This document shows, in pieces, positions 10,940 to 17,750 of a stretch of DNA of 33,712 nt (the stretch's first letter is position 1; every line of letters begins with the position of its first letter). Below the pieces are notes generated by a model. It had not been told where the DNA came from and searched no databases. It saw only the letters and a list, made by a program, of their open reading frames with translations. Location: NCBI RefSeq assembly GCF_003258295.1, contig NZ_QKYN01000084.1, positions 1 to 33,712 on the forward strand. Direction: 5' to 3'. This DNA comes from Streptacidiphilus pinicola. GTDB lineage: Bacteria > Actinomycetota > Actinomycetes > Streptomycetales > Streptomycetaceae. Both the position numbers and the translations under genes were made by a program.

Positions 10940-11104
10940 ATGAGCCATGCTTCTGCGCCTGCCGCCGCCTCTTCGCTTAGAAGCGATTCCCGAACCGATG
11001 GATACGGCTGTCGCTCGAAATTCCGCGCGCATCAGCCTCGTTCGGGTGATCGCTCCGTTGCTCGATCTCGACAGGGCGGGCTCGGTGCGGCTCAGTGCCC
11101 GTAG
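10940..11104 (+). CDS. Possible small ORF cut by repeat element
   Basis: ATG 10940 with GAGGA about 8 bases upstream reads M-S-H-A-S-A-P-A-A-A-S-S before entering the 10979-11055 repeat. After that the frame is Arg/Ser-rich and unlikely to be natural. It may be the start of a gene downstream of the HTH cassette whose remainder was replaced. Weak evidence. Confidence 0.2.
   Translation: MSHASAPAAASSLRSDSRTDGYGCRSKFRAHQPRSGDRSVARSRQGGLGAAQCP
10979..11055. repeat. ~78-bp direct repeat with inverted ends, copy 1
   Basis: 77 bases closely matching 11582-11660. Each copy opens with AGCGATTCCCGAAC (here 10982-10995) and closes with its near complement GTTCGGGTGATCGCT (11040-11054), so each is itself an imperfect palindrome. 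The block TTCCGCGCGCATCAGCCTCG inside is identical in both copies. The two copies bracket one gene (11117-11500). Confidence 0.8.
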
Positions 11105-11500: not shown

Positions 11501-11581
11501 GGGCGCATCCTCTCTCCGCTCGCCGACAGTCTCTCCCCGCTCCTACTGGACAGACAACACCCTTTCCCCGTACCTAACTTG

Positions 11582-11660
11582 AGAAGCGATTCCCGAACAG
11601 AGCGGTGGGGCTGCTGCTCGAAACTTCCGCGCGCATCAGCCTCGTTTCGGGTGATCGCTC
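11582..11660. repeat. ~78-bp direct repeat with inverted ends, copy 2
   Basis: Second copy, with left arm 11585-11598 and right arm 11644-11659. It differs from copy 1 mainly in a ~15-base variable stretch after the left arm and by two small insertions. It ends about 15 bases before the left end of the IS5-family element. Confidence 0.8.
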
Positions 11661-11680
11661 AGCGGCCAGCGCATAGGAGA

Positions 11681-11734
11681 AGGGCCTCCTGCACAGTTCG
11701 GTGATGTCGAGTCAACGAACCAGCAGGAGGCCCT
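11681..11734. repeat. Inverted repeat in IS5-family leader
   Basis: AGGGCCTCCTGC (11681-11692) is perfectly complementary to GCAGGAGGCCCT (11723-11734), which ends just before GTG 11736. In read-through transcripts this would hide the transposase ribosome site (AGGAGG lies in the second arm). That is a known way for IS elements to avoid activation from outside promoters; its use here is inferred. Confidence 0.6.
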
Positions 11735-11735
11735 C

Positions 11736-12024
11736 GTGTCCCACTGTGGAGTGCTAGCTCTGTCCGCGTCCAGCTCCGGCGTGTCGTGCGAATGCCTCGC
11801 ACACCGGCTCGGGAATGCCGCCGACCAGCCGGACCGGACCCGCCGCTACGGCTCCGACCTCACCGACGCGGAGTGGGCGATCGTGCGGCCGCTGCTGCCC
11901 GTCCCAGCCTGGCTGAACGGGCGAGGGGGCCGCCCGGAGGGCTACTGCCACCGCCAACTGATCGATGCGGTGCGCTACTTGGTCGCCGAGGGCGTGCGCT
12001 GGGCCAGCCTGCCGATCGACTTCC
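11736..12024 (+). pseudogene. IS5-family transposase, N-terminal part, interrupted
   Basis: GTG 11736 opens 96 codons with the IS5-type N-terminal block R-R-Y-G-S-D-L-T-D-A-E-W-A-I-V-R-P-L-L-P-V-P, R-G-G-R-P-E-G-Y-C-H-R-Q-L-I-D-A-V-R-Y-L-V-A and R-W-A-S-L-P-I-D-F. At 12024 the similarity stops abruptly. The missing continuation (V-Y-R-F-F-R-R-W) is found at 16107 onward, so a 4.08-kb insertion splits the gene. The ORF then runs on to 12089 with unrelated residues. Confidence 0.85.
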
Positions 12025-12034
12025 TATCAGTTAC

Positions 12035-12072
12035 GTGGAATCACGCGCCGCATGAGCCACCTCGTATCCTGC
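12035..12072. repeat. Left terminal repeat of transposon
   Basis: Reading inward: GTGGAATC (12035-12042), 11 bases, GAGCCAC (12054-12060), 5 bases, ATCCTGC (12066-12072). The two outer and inner blocks are inverted at the right end with the same spacing. Confidence 0.75.
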
Positions 12073-12095
12073 GGCGTCCCATGGGCTGAGGAGGA

Positions 12096-13169
12096 GTGTT
12101 GGGCAGCGCGGTGGTGCTGGAGGAGAAGTGGCCGGTCCTTGGTCGGCACGAGCGGGCGGCCGAGTGGCTGCGGGTGTGGACGGACCTTGGGAGGGCCCCG
12201 CGGACGATCGACGCGTACGCCCGGGGTCTGGCCGAGTACCTGCTGATTTGCGAGCGAGACGGCATCGACCCGGTGACTGCAGGCCGGCTGCACGTTGCCG
12301 CGTTCGTGAAGGACCTGTCCACGCGACCGAGCCGACGGGGAGCCAACGTGGTGGCGCTGGACTCCGGAGCGGGTTTGGCGAACGCGACACTGCAGCAGCG
12401 ACTGGTGCCGGTGCGGCTGTTCTACGACTACCTGATCGAGGAGGGGCTGAGGGAGTCGAACCCGGTCGGCCGCGGTCGCTACACTCCGGGACGGAAGTTC
12501 GGGAGCCACGAGCGCGGCTTGGTCCCGCGCCTGGTGAAGCTGCCGTGGATCCCAAGCGAACAGCAGTGGCTCGACCTGCTGGACGTCATGCGCCAGGAGC
12601 CGGTGCGGAACCGGGTGATGCTCGCCCTGGCCTACGACGCCGCATTGCGTCGAGAGGAGCTGTGCTCGCTGCGGACCGAGGACGTCGATCCGGCTCACCG
12701 GACGCTGCGGATCAGGGCGGAGACGACGAAGACCCGACGTGAGCGCGTGGTTCCGTACTCCGCGCCGACCGGCGTGCTGCTGTCCGGCTACCTCGCGCAT
12801 CGGGCCACGATCAGCCGCGCTCGCGGCCCGCTGTTCCTGTCGCAGTCGCACCGCAACCACGGGCAGCCGCTGAGTCTGTGGACCTGGTCGAAGGTGATCC
12901 GCCGGGTCGCGCTGGCCGCCGACCTGCCGCGCTTCTCGACCCATACCACCCGGCACCTTTGCCTGACCGACCTGGCCCGGATGGGGTGGGAACTGCACGC
13001 CATCGCGACGTTCGCCGGTCACCGCAGCACCGAGTCGACCATGACCTACATCCACCTGTCCGGGCGGGACCTCGCGGAGAAGTTGAACCGCGGCATGCAG
13101 CAGATCCATTCCTGGCGCGTGGACATGCTCACCCGCGTCGGCCACCCGGGCAGGGGGAACGACCAGTGA
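12096..13169 (+). CDS. Tyrosine recombinase, TnpA-like
   Basis: 357 residues from GTG 12096; nearby TTG 12099 or GTG 12111 are alternatives, since GAGGAG sits very close. An N-terminal SAM-like core-binding domain (~20-130: A-P-R-T-I-D-A-Y-A-R-G-L-A-E-Y-L, V-R-L-F-Y-D-Y-L-I-E-E-G-L) precedes the catalytic domain. The active-site set is complete: Arg in A-L-R-R-E-E-L (~185), T-H-T-T-R-H (His ~283, Arg ~286), G-H-R-S (~309) and the nucleophile Tyr in M-T-Y-I-H (~318). The enzyme should cut and rejoin the element's ends. Its stop overlaps the start of the partner recombinase (GTGA), so the two are made together. Confidence 0.9.
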   Translation: MLGSAVVLEEKWPVLGRHERAAEWLRVWTDLGRAPRTIDAYARGLAEYLLICERDGIDPVTAGRLHVAAFVKDLSTRPSRRGANVVALDSGAGLANATLQQRLVPVRLFYDYLIEEGLRESNPVGRGRYTPGRKFGSHERGLVPRLVKLPWIPSEQQWLDLLDVMRQEPVRNRVMLALAYDAALRREELCSLRTEDVDPAHRTLRIRAETTKTRRERVVPYSAPTGVLLSGYLAHRATISRARGPLFLSQSHRNHGQPLSLWTWSKVIRRVALAADLPRFSTHTTRHLCLTDLARMGWELHAIATFAGHRSTESTMTYIHLSGRDLAEKLNRGMQQIHSWRVDMLTRVGHPGRGNDQ

Positions 13170-15487
13170 CCGCGACGAACTCATCGGCCGCGTCGGACAA
13201 CGGTCGGCCTGCTGTTTGGGCCTGGCCGCTCGACCCCGCCCGCTACGACCGTCGAGCGCTCCTGACCGGTGCTGAAGCGCAAGCGCTCAAGGCCCTGGAG
13301 ATCGATCAGGTCAGGCACCTGGGACTCACATCACTGGCGGCTCCCGCTCGTCTCGTCGAGCCGCTGGCGCACGCCCGGGACTCCCTCCACTGGACGCCTG
13401 GCACGGGCCACCAGCGCCGGTTCGCCCGGGACGCGGCCGGCCTCATCCTGATCCGCTGCGGCGACCTGGGCCGCAGCTTCTGGGGCTGGTCGGACGAGGA
13501 CTGGGCTGGCTTGATCAACCGGTCGGGGACCGAGTTCCGGCGTCTGTGGGGCGGTCAGATCGGCCCCAACGTCCGCCCGTTCCTGATCGCATACGCCTAC
13601 CTCGTCGGCGGTTTCACCGCGTTCGAGCTGCTCGGACGCTTCCAGCGGCCCACGCTCGCCCGCCGAGTCTTCGGCGAGGCCGCGGTCGAGGACGCCATCG
13701 GGAAGGTCCTGACGGTCCTGGGCGACTGGGGTTACCAGCGCGGCCCCGACTGCCTCACTTCGGCCGTCTGCCAGATTCTGCTGCTGAACCGCAGTCCGCG
13801 GCTGGAGGACTTGTCGAGTTTGGCGCTGGCAGCGATCCGTGCGACGCCGGCTATGCAGGGCGGCCAGTGGGCCAGCGATCTGCACGGGATCCACCGTGCC
13901 TTGGCCGCTCTCGGTCACGCTGAGCCGCCGCCGCGTCCCCGGCACGGACCCGGGCCCACGGCGATCGAGGGCGCCCGGGGCAGTTGGGCGGAGTGGGTGG
14001 AGCGCTGGCAGGCGACCTCGACGCTGACTCCGGGGGTCCGTGCCAGTTACCGAAGCGTCCTGGCGAAGATCGGCCGCTGGCTGGCCGCCGAGCACCCAGA
14101 GGTCACGGCACCGGAGCACTGGACCCGCCAGACCTGCGCGTCCTGGGTCGCGGCGGTCGACCGCATGACGGTCGGCGACTTCTCACAGTGGACGGCGGGC
14201 ATGCGGTCTCAGGGCCGGATCGGGAAGCCGCTCACACCGGAGTCGAAGTCCGGCTATCTGAAGGTGCCCCGCGCGTTCTTCCGCGACCTGCACGAATGGG
14301 AGTGGATTCCGCGACGATTCAACCCCGCTCACGCGCTGAGGACTCCCCGCAGTGTCCGGGCCCTCATGGGTCCGGATCCCCGGGTGATCGCCAACGATAT
14401 CTGGGCGAAGCTCTTGTGGGCCGGACTGAACGTCGAGAGCGGCGACCTGCCGACCGCGGACGGCCGCACATACCCGGCCGAGCTGATCCGGGCCATCACG
14501 CTGACCTGGCTGTTCGCCGGACAACGCAGCGACGAGATCGCCCGACTCCGCGTCGGATGCATCCGCTGGCAGCACGACGGCCTGCCCATCCCCGGTGACT
14601 CCAGCGAGGTCCTTGCCCGCGACGCCATCTGCCTGCTCGACGTCCCCACCCACAAGACCGGCACCGCGTTCACCAAGCCCGTCGACCCTCTACTTGGGCA
14701 TGCGATCGAGGCCTGGCAGGCAGTCCGCCCCGACCAGCCCGCCATCCTCGACCCGAAGACCAACGAGCGCGCGAACTTCCTCTTCACCTTCCGCGCGCGC
14801 AGGGTCTCCAAGGACTACATCAACGGGACGATCATCCCGATGCTCTGCCGCAAGGCAGGTGTCCCCACCGCCGACGTCCGCGGCAACATCACCAGCCACC
14901 GGGCCCGCTCCACCATCGCCAGCCAGCTCTACAACGCCAAAGAACCCATGACCCTGTTCGAGCTCCAGGAGTGGCTCGGCCACCGGACGCCCGAAGCCAC
15001 GGCCCACTACGCGAAGATCACCCCGAACACACTGGCCAGGGCCTACAACGACGCCGGCTACTTCGCCCGCAACGTCCGCACCGTCGAAGTGCTCGTCGAC
15101 CGTGACGCCGTCGCTTCCGGGGCCGCCGCGAACGGCGAACCCTGGCAGTACTACGACCTCGGCCACGGCTGGTGCACCTACACCTTCTTCGAGCAGTGCC
15201 AGCACCGCATGGCCTGCGCCCGCTGCGACTTCTACACCCCGAAGGCCTCCAGCAAAGGCCAACTCCTGGAGGCCAAGGAGAACCTGCAGAAGATGCTCGC
15301 GGCCATCCCCCTGACCGACGACGAACGCGCCGCCGTCGACGACGGCCAAGCCGCCCTCGACCAGCTGCTGGACCGACTCACCGACGTCCCTACCCCGGCC
15401 GGCCCGACTCCCCGGCAGATCGGCATCCCCGCCCAGGCCACCCTGCTGCCGGTCATTGAGATCAACCGGAAACCGGCAGGTCAGTAG
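13166..15487 (+). CDS. Large tyrosine recombinase with Cys-rich tail, TnpB-like
   Basis: 773 residues from GTG 13166, which overlaps the tnpA-like stop; the open frame is longer but lies inside that gene. A ~270-residue N-terminal extension precedes a core-binding domain and the catalytic domain: Arg in G-Q-R-S-D-E-I-A-R-L (~454), S-H-R-A-R-S (~578), L-G-H-R-T-P-E (~605) and Tyr in A-H-Y-A-K-I (~615). After it comes a Cys/His cluster (W-C-T-Y-T-F-F-E-Q-C-Q-H-R-M-A-C-A-R-C, ~670-690), a probable zinc finger, then a helical tail. Tn554 TnpB is similarly larger than TnpA. The two probably act as a hetero-complex in which the extension recognises the ends or target. Confidence 0.9.
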   Translation: MTATNSSAASDNGRPAVWAWPLDPARYDRRALLTGAEAQALKALEIDQVRHLGLTSLAAPARLVEPLAHARDSLHWTPGTGHQRRFARDAAGLILIRCGDLGRSFWGWSDEDWAGLINRSGTEFRRLWGGQIGPNVRPFLIAYAYLVGGFTAFELLGRFQRPTLARRVFGEAAVEDAIGKVLTVLGDWGYQRGPDCLTSAVCQILLLNRSPRLEDLSSLALAAIRATPAMQGGQWASDLHGIHRALAALGHAEPPPRPRHGPGPTAIEGARGSWAEWVERWQATSTLTPGVRASYRSVLAKIGRWLAAEHPEVTAPEHWTRQTCASWVAAVDRMTVGDFSQWTAGMRSQGRIGKPLTPESKSGYLKVPRAFFRDLHEWEWIPRRFNPAHALRTPRSVRALMGPDPRVIANDIWAKLLWAGLNVESGDLPTADGRTYPAELIRAITLTWLFAGQRSDEIARLRVGCIRWQHDGLPIPGDSSEVLARDAICLLDVPTHKTGTAFTKPVDPLLGHAIEAWQAVRPDQPAILDPKTNERANFLFTFRARRVSKDYINGTIIPMLCRKAGVPTADVRGNITSHRARSTIASQLYNAKEPMTLFELQEWLGHRTPEATAHYAKITPNTLARAYNDAGYFARNVRTVEVLVDRDAVASGAAANGEPWQYYDLGHGWCTYTFFEQCQHRMACARCDFYTPKASSKGQLLEAKENLQKMLAAIPLTDDERAAVDDGQAALDQLLDRLTDVPTPAGPTPRQIGIPAQATLLPVIEINRKPAGQ

Positions 15488-15490
15488 CCT

Positions 15491-16003
15491 TCAACAGCCC
15501 AGTTGGTGCCGAACATAGTCCGGCTGGGCCTCGCCGACCTCGATGCGGTTCTCGTCGAGACCGTTGGCGATCCGCAGACGGTCCCCGGCGAAGGCGAACT
15601 CCACCGCCACCGTCCCAGCCGCCAGGTCACGGCCTGTCGGCCGCCACTCAAGGAGCGCGACCTCGCGGAGTTCTTGGCCGACGAACGGTTCGAGGCGCTC
15701 ATCGCGCTGAGACCACTGAGGCGTCAGCTCGGACCACTCCCAGCCGGCGATGTCCGCCGCGGTGTCGATCCCGTCCCAGCCGATCGAGAGCTCGTCGAGC
15801 TTCCAGTGGCAAACCTCCACCTGGATGCCGTCGAAGTCCAGCACCACAGGGCAGTCGGCGAACCATTCCCCATCCTCGGCGAAACGCACCACGGCGAAGC
15901 CCGTCAAGCGCCTGCCCGCGAGCATCGCCAGCCGTGAGCCGTGCGCCTGCCGAATCGCCTCGAATCCGACCAGAAAGGACGGCTCGAAACCAGAGATCCC
16001 CAT
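15491..16003 (-). CDS. Cargo protein of unknown function
   Basis: 170 residues from ATG 16003 (GTG 16009 is possible). It begins M-G-I-S-G-F-E-P-S-F-L-V-G-F-E-A-I-R-Q-A-H-G. It continues as alternating beta strands rich in Trp, Asp and Glu (F-A-V-V-R-F-A-E-D-G-E-W-F-A-D-C-P-V-V-L-D-F, W-K-L-D-E-L-S-I-G-W-D-G-I-D) and ends with F-A-F-A-G-D-R-L-R-I-A-N-G-L-D-E-N. No signal peptide or membrane helix. It is acidic and looks like an immunity- or binding-type all-beta protein, but no family is recognised. It converges on the recombinase gene with 3 bases between stops and lies wholly inside the transposon, so it travels with it. Confidence 0.65.
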   Translation of the reverse strand: MGISGFEPSFLVGFEAIRQAHGSRLAMLAGRRLTGFAVVRFAEDGEWFADCPVVLDFDGIQVEVCHWKLDELSIGWDGIDTAADIAGWEWSELTPQWSQRDERLEPFVGQELREVALLEWRPTGRDLAAGTVAVEFAFAGDRLRIANGLDENRIEVGEAQPDYVRHQLGC

Positions 16004-16058
16004 GTCCACAGTCCGAGTCTCTCGGCCTTGGGCCCGATCGGCCAACACATATCGACCA

Positions 16059-16096
16059 GCAGGATCTCCCGAGCCACTTGACGGATCGGATTCCAC
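16059..16096. repeat. Right terminal repeat of transposon
   Basis: On the complementary strand, reading inward: GTGGAATC (16096-16089), 11 bases, GTGGCTC (16077-16071), 5 bases, ATCCTGC (16065-16059). The middle heptamer is the reverse complement of the one at the left end, while the blocks on either side are the same. Confidence 0.75.
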
Positions 16097-16100
16097 AGAA

Positions 16101-16493
16101 CCAGATGGCGGGCCGTGTACCGGTTCTTCCGCCGCTGGCGCGACAACGACTACATCAAGGAGCTCTACGGCCGGCTGCGCAAGATGCTGCGCGAGCTGGC
16201 CGGGAAGAAGGAAGAACCAACCGCCGCAATCATCGACTCGCAGTCGGTGAAGGCCGACGCCACCGTCGGCGCGGCCACCCGCGGCTACGACGCCGGGAAG
16301 AAGATCAACGGGAGGATGCGGCACATTGCGGTGGACACCCTGGGGCTACTGCTGACCGTGCTGGTGACGGCCGCCTCGGTCAAGGACAACGACGCCGGCC
16401 GCGACCTCCTGGAACAACTGCGCGCCGAACACCACCGCATCGCCCTGGTCTGGGCCGACGGCGGCTACACCGGCTGGCTGGTCTCCCTAGCCC
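16101..16493 (+). pseudogene. IS5-family transposase, central part, 3'-truncated
   Basis: Continues the IS5 gene after the transposon: W-R-A-V-Y-R-F-F-R-R-W-R-D-N-D-Y-I, then A-A-I-I-D-S-Q-S-V-K-A-D-A (first catalytic Asp region) and G-R-M-R-H-I-A-V-D-T-L-G-L-L, then A-L-V-W-A-D-G-G-Y-T-G (second catalytic Asp). After W-L-V-S-L-A-Q (~16493) the similarity ends. The C-terminal ~90 residues with the catalytic Glu and the right IS end are missing, so the IS was already deleted or was cut by a later event. Confidence 0.85.
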
Positions 16494-16637
16494 AGCGTGG
16501 TCCGGCCAGGCGCGAGAGCTTTGCCTGCTCTTTACAGCAGGACCCCCACTTGCGTCGTCTCTTCGGGCGATCTGGAACGCAGCCCGCTGGCACCGCCCCT
16601 CAGGCAGCCCAGCGGACCGAGCAGAAAGAAGCTGTTG

Positions 16638-17093
16638 ATGCGTACAAGTGTTGTCGCCGCCGCCGCCCTGACCTTCGCCGCCGTGTTGGCGGGATCGGGG
16701 CCCGCGTTCGCCGACGCAGGGAGTGGCGGCGGGGCCGTGAACGTCAAGCCGAAGCCGATCGCCAGCGCGCCCGCAGGCGGCAGCGGTTCCGGGACTGTTC
16801 CGACGGCGACGCCGACGCGGGCCGGCGGTGGAGGCGGGGAGCCGAGCGCGGTGGCGTCTCCGGCGCCGACGCGGGCGGGCGGTTCTGGTTCGGGGGAGCC
16901 GAGTGCGGTGGCGTCGCCCGTGCCGACGCAGGTCGGGGCGGTGCCCGTGGGCGCGCCGGACACCGGGGTGGCGCCGGTCGCGGCCGGGAACGGTGGCGAA
17001 GGGGCTGCTCTGGGCGCGGGGCTGGGCGGGGCGGCGCTGGTCGCCGGGGCGGGCACCTTCGTGTTGCGCCGCCGGGCCAAGGCCCGGGGCTGA
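16638..17093 (+). CDS. Secreted Gly/Pro/Ser-rich protein with APDTG sorting-like signal
   Basis: 151 residues from ATG 16638. A signal peptide (M-R-T-S-V-V-A-A-A-A-L-T-F-A-A-V-L-A, cut after A-F-A) precedes a low-complexity region with repeats of G-E-P-S-A-V-A-S-P-x-P-T. Near the C-terminus, G-A-P-D-T-G-V is followed by a hydrophobic stretch (G-A-A-L-G-A-G-L-G-G-A-A-L-V-A-G-A-G-T-F-V-L) and R-R-R. This is the three-part layout of a sortase substrate, but with Ala in place of the usual Leu of LPxTG. The sortase gene starts 13 bases later, so the two are likely enzyme and substrate in one operon. Confidence 0.75.
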   Translation: MRTSVVAAAALTFAAVLAGSGPAFADAGSGGGAVNVKPKPIASAPAGGSGSGTVPTATPTRAGGGGGEPSAVASPAPTRAGGSGSGEPSAVASPVPTQVGAVPVGAPDTGVAPVAAGNGGEGAALGAGLGGAALVAGAGTFVLRRRAKARG

Positions 17094-17105
17094 GCCTTGC
17101 GACGG

Positions 17106-17750
17106 ATGCGTGCGGCCATGCTGACGGCGACGGTGCTGGCCTCGGTGGCGCTCAGTTCGGCGTGCGGGGGAGCCCCCGGGGCTCCGCCTGCCTCGTCGGT
17201 CGCCGTGAGCGGTACCGCTCCTGACAACCCGTCGAGGGCTTCCGGTCAGGCCGGGGCCGGAGCCGGGGCGGCTACAGGTCCGATCGCGCGGTCGACGCCC
17301 GAACGCCTGGTGATCCCCAGCATCGGGGTGGACACGGCGGTCGTGTCGCTCGGCCTGGCGCCGGACGGCACGGTCCAGGTGCCGCCGATCGAGGCGAACG
17401 CGCCGGCCGGCTGGTACCGGGGTTCACCAACGCCCGGCCAGACCGGGCCCTCGGTGATCCTGGCGCACGTGACGGTGGGCCGCTACGGGGACGGGGTCTT
17501 CCTCAACCTGTCGCGGCTCAAGCAGGGCGACCGCATCACCGCACGGCTGCAGGACGGCGCCTCCGCCGTCTTCTCGGTCGACCGAGTGCAGACCGTTGCA
17601 AAAGCGCAGTTCCCCACCCGCGCCGTCTACGGGAACGTGGACCGCCCCGAGCTGCGTCTGATCACCTGCGGCGGCCCACGCAACAGCGCTGCGGGCGGCT
17701 ACCTCGACAACGTCGTGGTCTATGCCTCCCTCGTGTCCACCGCCAGGTAA
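17106..17750 (+). CDS. Class F-like sortase
   Basis: 214 residues from ATG 17106. The N-terminal hydrophobic segment ends L-S-S-A-C-G-G, so it may be a lipoprotein signal or a membrane anchor. After a disordered linker the sortase beta-barrel begins (R-L-V-I-P-S-I-G-V-D-T-A-V). The catalytic His is in I-L-A-H-V-T and the catalytic Cys in L-R-L-I-T-C-G-G. An Arg follows in G-G-P-R; the usual third catalytic Arg position is not certain from sequence alone. The enzyme would join the preceding APDTG protein to the cell envelope or process it. Probably co-transcribed with its substrate. Confidence 0.85.
   Translation: MRAAMLTATVLASVALSSACGGAPGAPPASSVAVSGTAPDNPSRASGQAGAGAGAATGPIARSTPERLVIPSIGVDTAVVSLGLAPDGTVQVPPIEANAPAGWYRGSPTPGQTGPSVILAHVTVGRYGDGVFLNLSRLKQGDRITARLQDGASAVFSVDRVQTVAKAQFPTRAVYGNVDRPELRLITCGGPRNSAAGGYLDNVVVYASLVSTAR

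Follow-up and report, generated by a model that had tools for sequence, protein, structure and literature searches.

A putative Tn554-related transposon splits an IS5-family transposase gene in Streptacidiphilus pinicola and belongs to a family that usually lands in transposase genes

Tn554 of Staphylococcus carries one short and one long tyrosine recombinase and inserts site-specifically without duplicating its target, according to the sections of PMC10214605 and PMC3414803 covered here. The latter, in the same sections, also describes an actinobacterial class related to Tn554, with one long and one short recombinase and in part without TnpC (Famint36/41). We analyzed a stretch of 33,712 nucleotides from Streptacidiphilus pinicola (assembly GCF_003258295.1, contig NZ_QKYN01000084.1, positions 1 to 33,712; hereafter the window), in which an element of 4,076 bp, at 12025-16100, lies inside an IS5-family transposase gene and splits it. 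The original prediction, made from the letters of the window, had called this element "Tn554-like": the short and long recombinase pair stood, whereas TnpC, the single fixed target and the behavior of the hexamer at the ends did not, and membership in Tn554 proper was downgraded, there being no TnpC and a different hexamer rule. In the place of a third gene, tnpC, only a reverse-strand cargo gene follows recombinase 2, no search with a TnpC sequence having been made. The gene pair, its sizes, the hosts and the lack of TnpC are features shared with the Famint36/41 class as the covered parts of PMC3414803 present it. We read the element, with a probability of about 85%, as an autonomous site-specific transposon of the TnpC-less actinobacterial Tn554-related class, which would insert through a 6-bp overlap into target genes specific to each clade and carry a hexamer of its own at one end.

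Judged by the flanks of its relatives, landing in transposase genes is the usual pattern of the element family and no accident of the window copy. Scanning a genome collection confirmed 132 relatives of recombinase 2, the longer enzyme, and 80 of them were kept (loci are designated below by L and a number); a search of 297 genomes of the same family returned matches at E <= 0.001 in 64, many being short or weak. Streptomyces accounts for many of the named relatives. Common ends were found at 52 distinct two-ended sites, a set that omits loci without both end motifs, loci with less than 30 bp of flank on one side, and duplicates. Forty-five of these sites are in transposase or integrase genes, namely IS3-type integrase cores (14), ISL3 (13, one of them, L091, lying elsewhere in the gene), IS5 (6), Tn3 (6), IS256 (3) and tyrosine integrases (3). 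A class-wide genome search brought little that was new: it matched 8 of 394 genomes at 1e-100, and among the new loci L157 and L158 were 98% identical to loci already counted.

Pfam assignments agree with the labels read from translated flanks where the pieces are long enough. The tally of 46 pieces, which gives no member names, comprises rve (13), DDE_Tnp_ISL3 (9), DDE_Tnp_Tn3 (5), DUF4096 (4), Phage_integrase (3, one of which is taken as the recombinase of a neighboring element in L041), Transposase_mut (2), DDE_Tnp_1 (2) and YhcG_C (1). The IS5 target was confirmed individually for the window element (WIN), L003, L034 and L037, and through the tally for L032 and L094; Pfam also confirmed the DUF6233 target of L069, L075, L104 and L119 and the YhcG target of L111, and found no useful match for the pieces from L063, L066, L068, L070 and L073. 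Locus L041 (4800-11700) is composite: next to a complete element stands another that is inverted and rearranged. To the left the flank reads as a transposase gene of Tn3 type, and to the right as recombinase 2 of the second element.

Within a class, the insertion point is defined to the base. Of 49 sites in seven classes, 46 could be scored from a protein anchor for each class, and all 46 fall at one nucleotide per class or at exactly +6 bp when reversed; the other three (L041, L097 and L109, all Tn3) were not scored by the anchors. Forward and reverse offsets are 7/13 for IS5, -8/-2 for IS3, 13/19 for Tn3, 16/22 for IS256, 22/28 for integrases and 25/31 for DUF6233 genes, which likewise form a target class with a single position and a reversed counterpart. 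At IS3-class sites the counts are 12 of 14 at one position and two reversed at +6 bp; ISL3-class sites are reversed in 12 of 12, at 25, and in L096, with flanks derived from two different ISL3 copies, the other flank also reads 19. This 6-bp offset between orientations, established by comparison of the sites, is as expected of a 6-bp crossover that operates either way round. For the window clade the target is the stretch of D-F-P-x-W codons of IS5-family transposases. Across all classes together no consensus emerged, no position in the 52 sites reaching at least 0.8 bit, and specificity therefore seems to differ by clade.

Comparison with empty relatives fixes both the ends of the window element and its empty site. 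In 12 of 14 IS relatives from other genomes (L132-L145) the flanks join directly, GAyTTCC being followed by the base equivalent to 16101; L140 and L144 have no such empty site at that point. Since the junction in empty relatives is 12024/16101, the insertion lengthened the site by 4,076 bp and neither duplicated nor removed target bases, and since 4,076 mod 3 = 2, removal restores the reading frame of the transposase. The prediction that the ends are precise and can be read from the split host gene, and that excising the element repairs that frame, was thereby borne out to the base. Recombinase pairs elsewhere do not have differing boundaries, their ends being the same (TTACGTGGAATC and GATTCCACAGAA, or the latter ending in ..TAA), nor is the segment a natural part of the IS5 relatives. 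The arms, 12 bp each, are imperfect inverted repeats of one another, with matches at 10 of 12 bases. The 18-bp left end (TATCAG plus arm) is unique in the 8.4-Mb genome; the right end appears a single time in the window and in none of 100 shuffles. The hexamer CCAGAT to the right resembles those of the empty copies, and TATCAG at the left is unlike them.

The target also follows the phylogeny of the enzymes. On a tree of 53 recombinase pairs carrying 10 target labels, the labels change nine times, the minimum possible, compared with a mean of 34.2 changes for shuffled labels and none of 200 shuffles as low as nine, near-copies on the tree favoring a low score. Well-supported branches are those of IS256 (100), the integrases (99), IS3 with L091 (100) and the combined ISL3/DUF6233 group (100). 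L091 belongs to the IS3 clade yet lies in an ISL3 gene, at a stretch resembling the IS3 target, which suggests how a switch of target may begin.

Plasmid loci that had not been used for the labels gave the same agreement. Nineteen were taken, mainly from the tops of the lists, out of 616 records matching recombinase 2 and 1,162 matching recombinase 1, some matches (for example H8, H14, H16-H20, H22 and H23) being left out. Both ends were present in 13 of the 19, and in 13 of 13 the class of the nearest labeled relative was the observed target. Eight of these targets were assigned by Pfam (L146, L147, L163, L164, L165, L171, L172 and L175) and five by translated sequence alone (L149, L166, L167, L168 and L173); L171, L173 and L175 have one recognizable flank, and the nearest relative of L171 is L041, labeled by eye. 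One end was found in L162, L174 and L177, and none in L169, L170 and L176. Three of the plasmid loci have features of their own. In L173 (5568-9186) the roles are reversed, recombinase 2 itself being interrupted by an IS3-family transposase gene. L147 and L172 have the same recombinase accessions, are on one Streptomyces plasmid and have the right flank and downstream genes in common, with different IS5 left flanks, a pattern that suggests recombination between copies.

Scanning for the left end alone, TANNAGTTACGTGGAATC, independently of any recombinase sequence, produced 20 hits spread over 17 of 294 genomes, and none for the reversed control. All 19 hits with flanks read as transposase genes in the left flank (G042 is flankless); nine were already in the set, and the ten new ones, assigned by translation and not by Pfam, are ISL3 (7), IS5 (2) and Tn3 (1). 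The exact pattern can miss insertions of the DUF6233 type, the arm of L119 differing by one base.

Several points weigh against the reading of a clade-specific transposon aimed at transposase genes. Movement is deduced from comparing sequences rather than from witnessed excision or integration, and the class labels come from translated flanks, many of them by eye, with Pfam applied to a single piece from each site. On the tree, the IS5 and Tn3 groups each form one side of a weakly supported branch (29% and 25%). At five of the 52 sites (L041, L068, L070, L096 and L109) the two flanks form no single gene, probably through later recombination between copies. The left hexamer departs from the family pattern TANNAG in 14 of 91 loci, seven of which make up the distant group L013-L016 with its duplicates, the rest being L037, L092, L094, L097, L099, L106 and L111. 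Lastly, seven of the 52 sites are outside transposase and integrase genes (five in DUF6233 genes, one in a YhcG nuclease gene and one unassigned), so that the rule may really be "abundant repeated genes". The target would then be picked for its abundance, transposase genes being merely the commonest repeats, by a mechanism otherwise the same, and the two accounts overlap. The DUF6233 genes, presumably a multicopy family, and the three integrase genes fit such a choice; set against them is the share of sites, 45 of 52, that falls in transposase or integrase genes of six families. We treat selection for abundance as a serious possibility, short of even odds.

Recent movement of a relative is apparent in genome G058, which has three copies of 3,509-3,510 bp that are 100.0% identical (rounded) and each sit in a different IS3-type copy. 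Over 400 bp of flank their identity is 49-72%, against 49.7% for random sequence. All three copies have TATAAG as left hexamer, and their right hexamers, TCGCGA, TGGCAA and TGGCCA, fit the reading frame of the current target. The pattern TANNAG is present in 77 of the 91 loci with a recognized left end (duplicates included), across target classes. As these copies compare, the left hexamer belongs to the element and the right hexamer to the target. The shape of one-element contigs, of which seven are distinct (3,471-3,524 bp; L008, identical with L074, L035, L039, L040, L044, L057 and L071), is that expected of a collapsed repeat with a constant left hexamer and a variable right neighbor: they start at most two bases from the start of the left hexamer and end 0-11 bases past the right arm. 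L038 ends short of the right arm, and L058, L064 and L083 are shaped otherwise.

A different hexamer rule would be expected if the family moved as PMC10214605, in its covered parts, describes for the strand-biased circularizing integrative elements (SEs) and, citing others, for Tn554-related elements, in which the hexamer from the left flank of the donor site ends up to the right of the new one. The kind of enzyme, the 6-bp overlap and the lack of target duplication are the same, and the next insertion would then bear at its other end, as a footprint, the hexamer of the previous site; the conservation of the left hexamer across target classes and its identity in three copies at different sites, together with the fit of the right hexamer to the present target, make this unlikely. 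So does L106 (4878-8350), at a site that is by sequence an ISL3-type transposase gene: its recombinase genes are inverted relative to the end arms, but the target bases still adjoin the TTCTGTGGAATC arm, and the other arm has TGATAG in its own orientation. A distant sister group, L013-L016 with L128, L129 and L130, has a recombinase 2 that is 41-49% identical and a similar arm; the left hexamers of L128, L129, L130 and L016 are not TANNAG (GATGCC, TCGGTA and GCAGCC were read), no right end was recognized in the group, which is outside the site counts, and it may follow another hexamer rule. In the distant relative L148, on a Klebsiella plasmid, no ends were found, and it was not counted.

Descent of the insertion sequences themselves could also bring about shared sites, if one old insertion per IS family had been spread by the IS. 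The target class would then track the recombinase tree just as it does, and IS transposases can act in trans. We consider such hitch-hiking very unlikely: the near-identical trio in G058 occupies different IS3-type copies with dissimilar flanks, six classes on two-flank evidence, and L096 in a seventh, show insertions in both orientations at one and the same 6-bp overlap, the window element and that of L003 are 87.7% identical and their IS flanks 53-59%, and the IS that hosts the window element is without its right end. That the element lands anywhere and is visible only in genes that are dispensable and common, as transposase genes are, is scarcely credible given the single-nucleotide specificity in unrelated genomes (in IS3 and ISL3 alike), the switch of target family by clade and the transposase genes at every flanked hit of the left-end scan.

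For the site-specific transposon that we favor, the following course can be proposed. The two tyrosine recombinases would act as an unequal pair on an Xer-like site made by joining of the ends, GATTCCACAGAA-TANNAG-TTACGTGGAATC, in which imperfectly inverted 12-bp arms surround the 6-bp overlap; a circular intermediate, the assignment of each arm to one recombinase and exchange of one strand would be parts of this scheme. The joined ends would recombine through the overlap at a conserved place in a transposase gene, in one orientation or the other and with neither duplication nor loss of target, leaving the element's own hexamer at its left arm and the target's hexamer beside its right arm. Each clade of recombinase pairs would address its own family of target genes, the window clade addressing IS5-family transposases, and we infer that the recombinases, and not another factor, set the target. 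The preference for transposase genes may be an adaptation.

We lean, with some reservation, toward a broader interpretation, a radiation of hyperparasitic transposons in which one lineage of recombinase pairs was repeatedly re-aimed among IS3, ISL3, IS5, Tn3, IS256 and tyrosine integrase genes by way of a fixed, element-owned overlap hexamer and strand-biased exchange. If true, this would be a mobile element specialized on mobile elements, interrupting several transposase families and needing no safe site in a host gene; transposase-bearing elements would serve it as landing sites that are plentiful, do no harm and are themselves portable. The choice of target by tyrosine recombinases, and its change, is an old question that has mostly been studied in single enzymes; the present set offers about 50 natural pairs with shared ends and exactly known insertion points, placed on a tree in which the label changes nine times. 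Such a graded natural series of retargeted enzymes means that the residues setting specificity could be mapped and tested. The re-aimed elements would, moreover, carry an exchangeable cargo, mostly of a single gene.

The features of the window element and its host gene are collected in Table 1. The predicted composition, two overlapping recombinases of unequal size and one cargo gene in a unit of ~4.08 kb, was confirmed, the recombinase genes overlapping by 4 bp. Both enzymes are catalytically complete, as had been claimed, with all six of the R, K, H, R, H and Y positions present in each; among 95 full-length loci, duplicates kept in, at most two deviate at any single position. Only one full-length copy, the element itself, is present in its own genome, where a second match to recombinase 2 is weak (4.6e-4) and appears generic. 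That the window copy is still active, as had been suggested, is plausible in view of these intact positions and the three near-identical copies of a relative.

Table 1. Positions of the window element, its ends and the interrupted IS5-family gene.
Feature	Position	Strand	Description
Host IS5-family left part	11577-12024	+	Edge 11577-11582 by similarity; transposase N-terminal part from 11736; DUF4096
Left hexamer TATCAG, probably element-owned (family pattern TANNAG)	12025-12030	+	Missing from empty sites; constant in three near-identical copies of a relative
Left terminal arm TTACGTGGAATC	12031-12042	+	Conserved among relatives
Recombinase 1	12096-13169	+	357 aa, tyrosine recombinase (XerC/XerD-like); PF00589, 1.2e-31
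Recombinase 2	13166-15487	+	773 aa, long tyrosine recombinase; PF00589, 3.6e-10
Cargo gene	15491-16003	-	170 aa; open reading frame between recombinase 2 and right end
Right terminal arm GATTCCACAGAA	16089-16100	+	Conserved among relatives
Target-derived hexamer CCAGAT (6-bp overlap of IS5 site)	16101-16106	+	Empty relatives: CCAAGT, CCAGGT, CCCACT or similar
Host IS5 transposase right part, truncated	16101-16508	+	DDE_Tnp_1; similarity stops at 16507-16508

The cargo differs among relatives. Those without cargo mostly stop ~10-50 bp past the estimated end of recombinase 2, and others have one or a few genes there. The window cargo protein had no match in Pfam, NCBIfam or PADLOC; it has 337 homologs at E <= 0.001, and the named ones among the best 120 are hypothetical or uncharacterized proteins. 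Its family is found in the IS5-targeted window element, L003 and L037, in L045 (Tn3) and in L096 (ISL3), and a 246-aa cargo protein is common to L094 (IS5) and to L004, L005 and L090 (ISL3); cargo thus crosses target clades. Among ten cargo proteins Pfam assigned one to SMI1_KNR4/SUKH (L033), one to DUF4240 and one to DUF6193, seven including that of the window having no match; two further cargo proteins also had no Pfam match, and the cargo region of L119 encodes an ABC transporter ATPase. The single SUKH protein among the ten is only a hint of an immunity-protein role. A defence role was considered and set aside, 0 of 10 cargo proteins having a PADLOC match.

The interrupted gene had been identified as an IS5-family transposase, and its two flanks match DUF4096 and DDE_Tnp_1 as expected of one. 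The intact relative L135 encodes a transposase of 339 aa and extends ~240 bp past the point, ~16508, at which similarity to the window ends; the stretch beyond is missing, so the host is an IS5 remnant, though both domains are present. Within its own genome the right part of the IS gave a single match. The left end of the IS recurs as a second, partial copy at 11000-11061, ~600 bp upstream (L139, 88.7% over 62 bp). Directly downstream of the truncated IS5, at 16638-17750, are a class F sortase (191.7 bits) and a short protein with a weak, below-cut-off match to the GVDTG sorting domain.

Tn554 has one unique site, att554, which lies in radC, whereas the targets of the window family are transposase genes that differ by clade; the footprint hexamer of Tn554, which moves from the donor's left flank to the right-hand side of the next insertion, likewise contrasts with the left hexamer that appears to be owned by the element. 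The relation to Tn554 is that drawn for the class in PMC3414803. The plasmid pRHL2 (NC_008270), on which that paper lists a copy of the class, has matches to P0002 (4.0e-93) and P0001 (best 2.2e-86), partial and in two places, with 45% identity to recombinase 2 over residues 17-417 and 54-74% to recombinase 1 in pieces, and the TnpC-bearing pNL1 gave no matches to the window recombinases. PMC3414803 suggests several similar attB sites; the ends, target genes and hexamer rule are not given in the parts covered.

Other described elements share single features with the one in the window. SEs, as presented in the covered parts of PMC10214605, also have two unequal recombinases, imperfect inverted ends and a 6-bp spacer, and one of them is inserted in insJ of IS3; they differ in having four core genes, intA-tfp-intB-srap, and in being reported from Gammaproteobacteria, whereas the window element has two recombinase genes and one reverse-strand gene. 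SEs are further marked by a strand-biased circle and by leaving no empty donor site. GInts (PMC5385486, in part) and RIT elements resemble it in carrying several tyrosine recombinases each, but have three recombinase-type genes, to which GInts add ginD, and several GInts are located at ssb genes. PMC8138268 and PMC5385486 mention Tn554, and the parts covered do not state a rule by which transposase genes are the target; nor did we find, in the open-access literature, mostly at the level of titles and the beginnings of abstracts, a description of transposase-gene targeting by the TnpC-less Tn554-related class. It is the target rule, a single nucleotide within transposase genes that is specific to each clade, that appears new beyond the known class.

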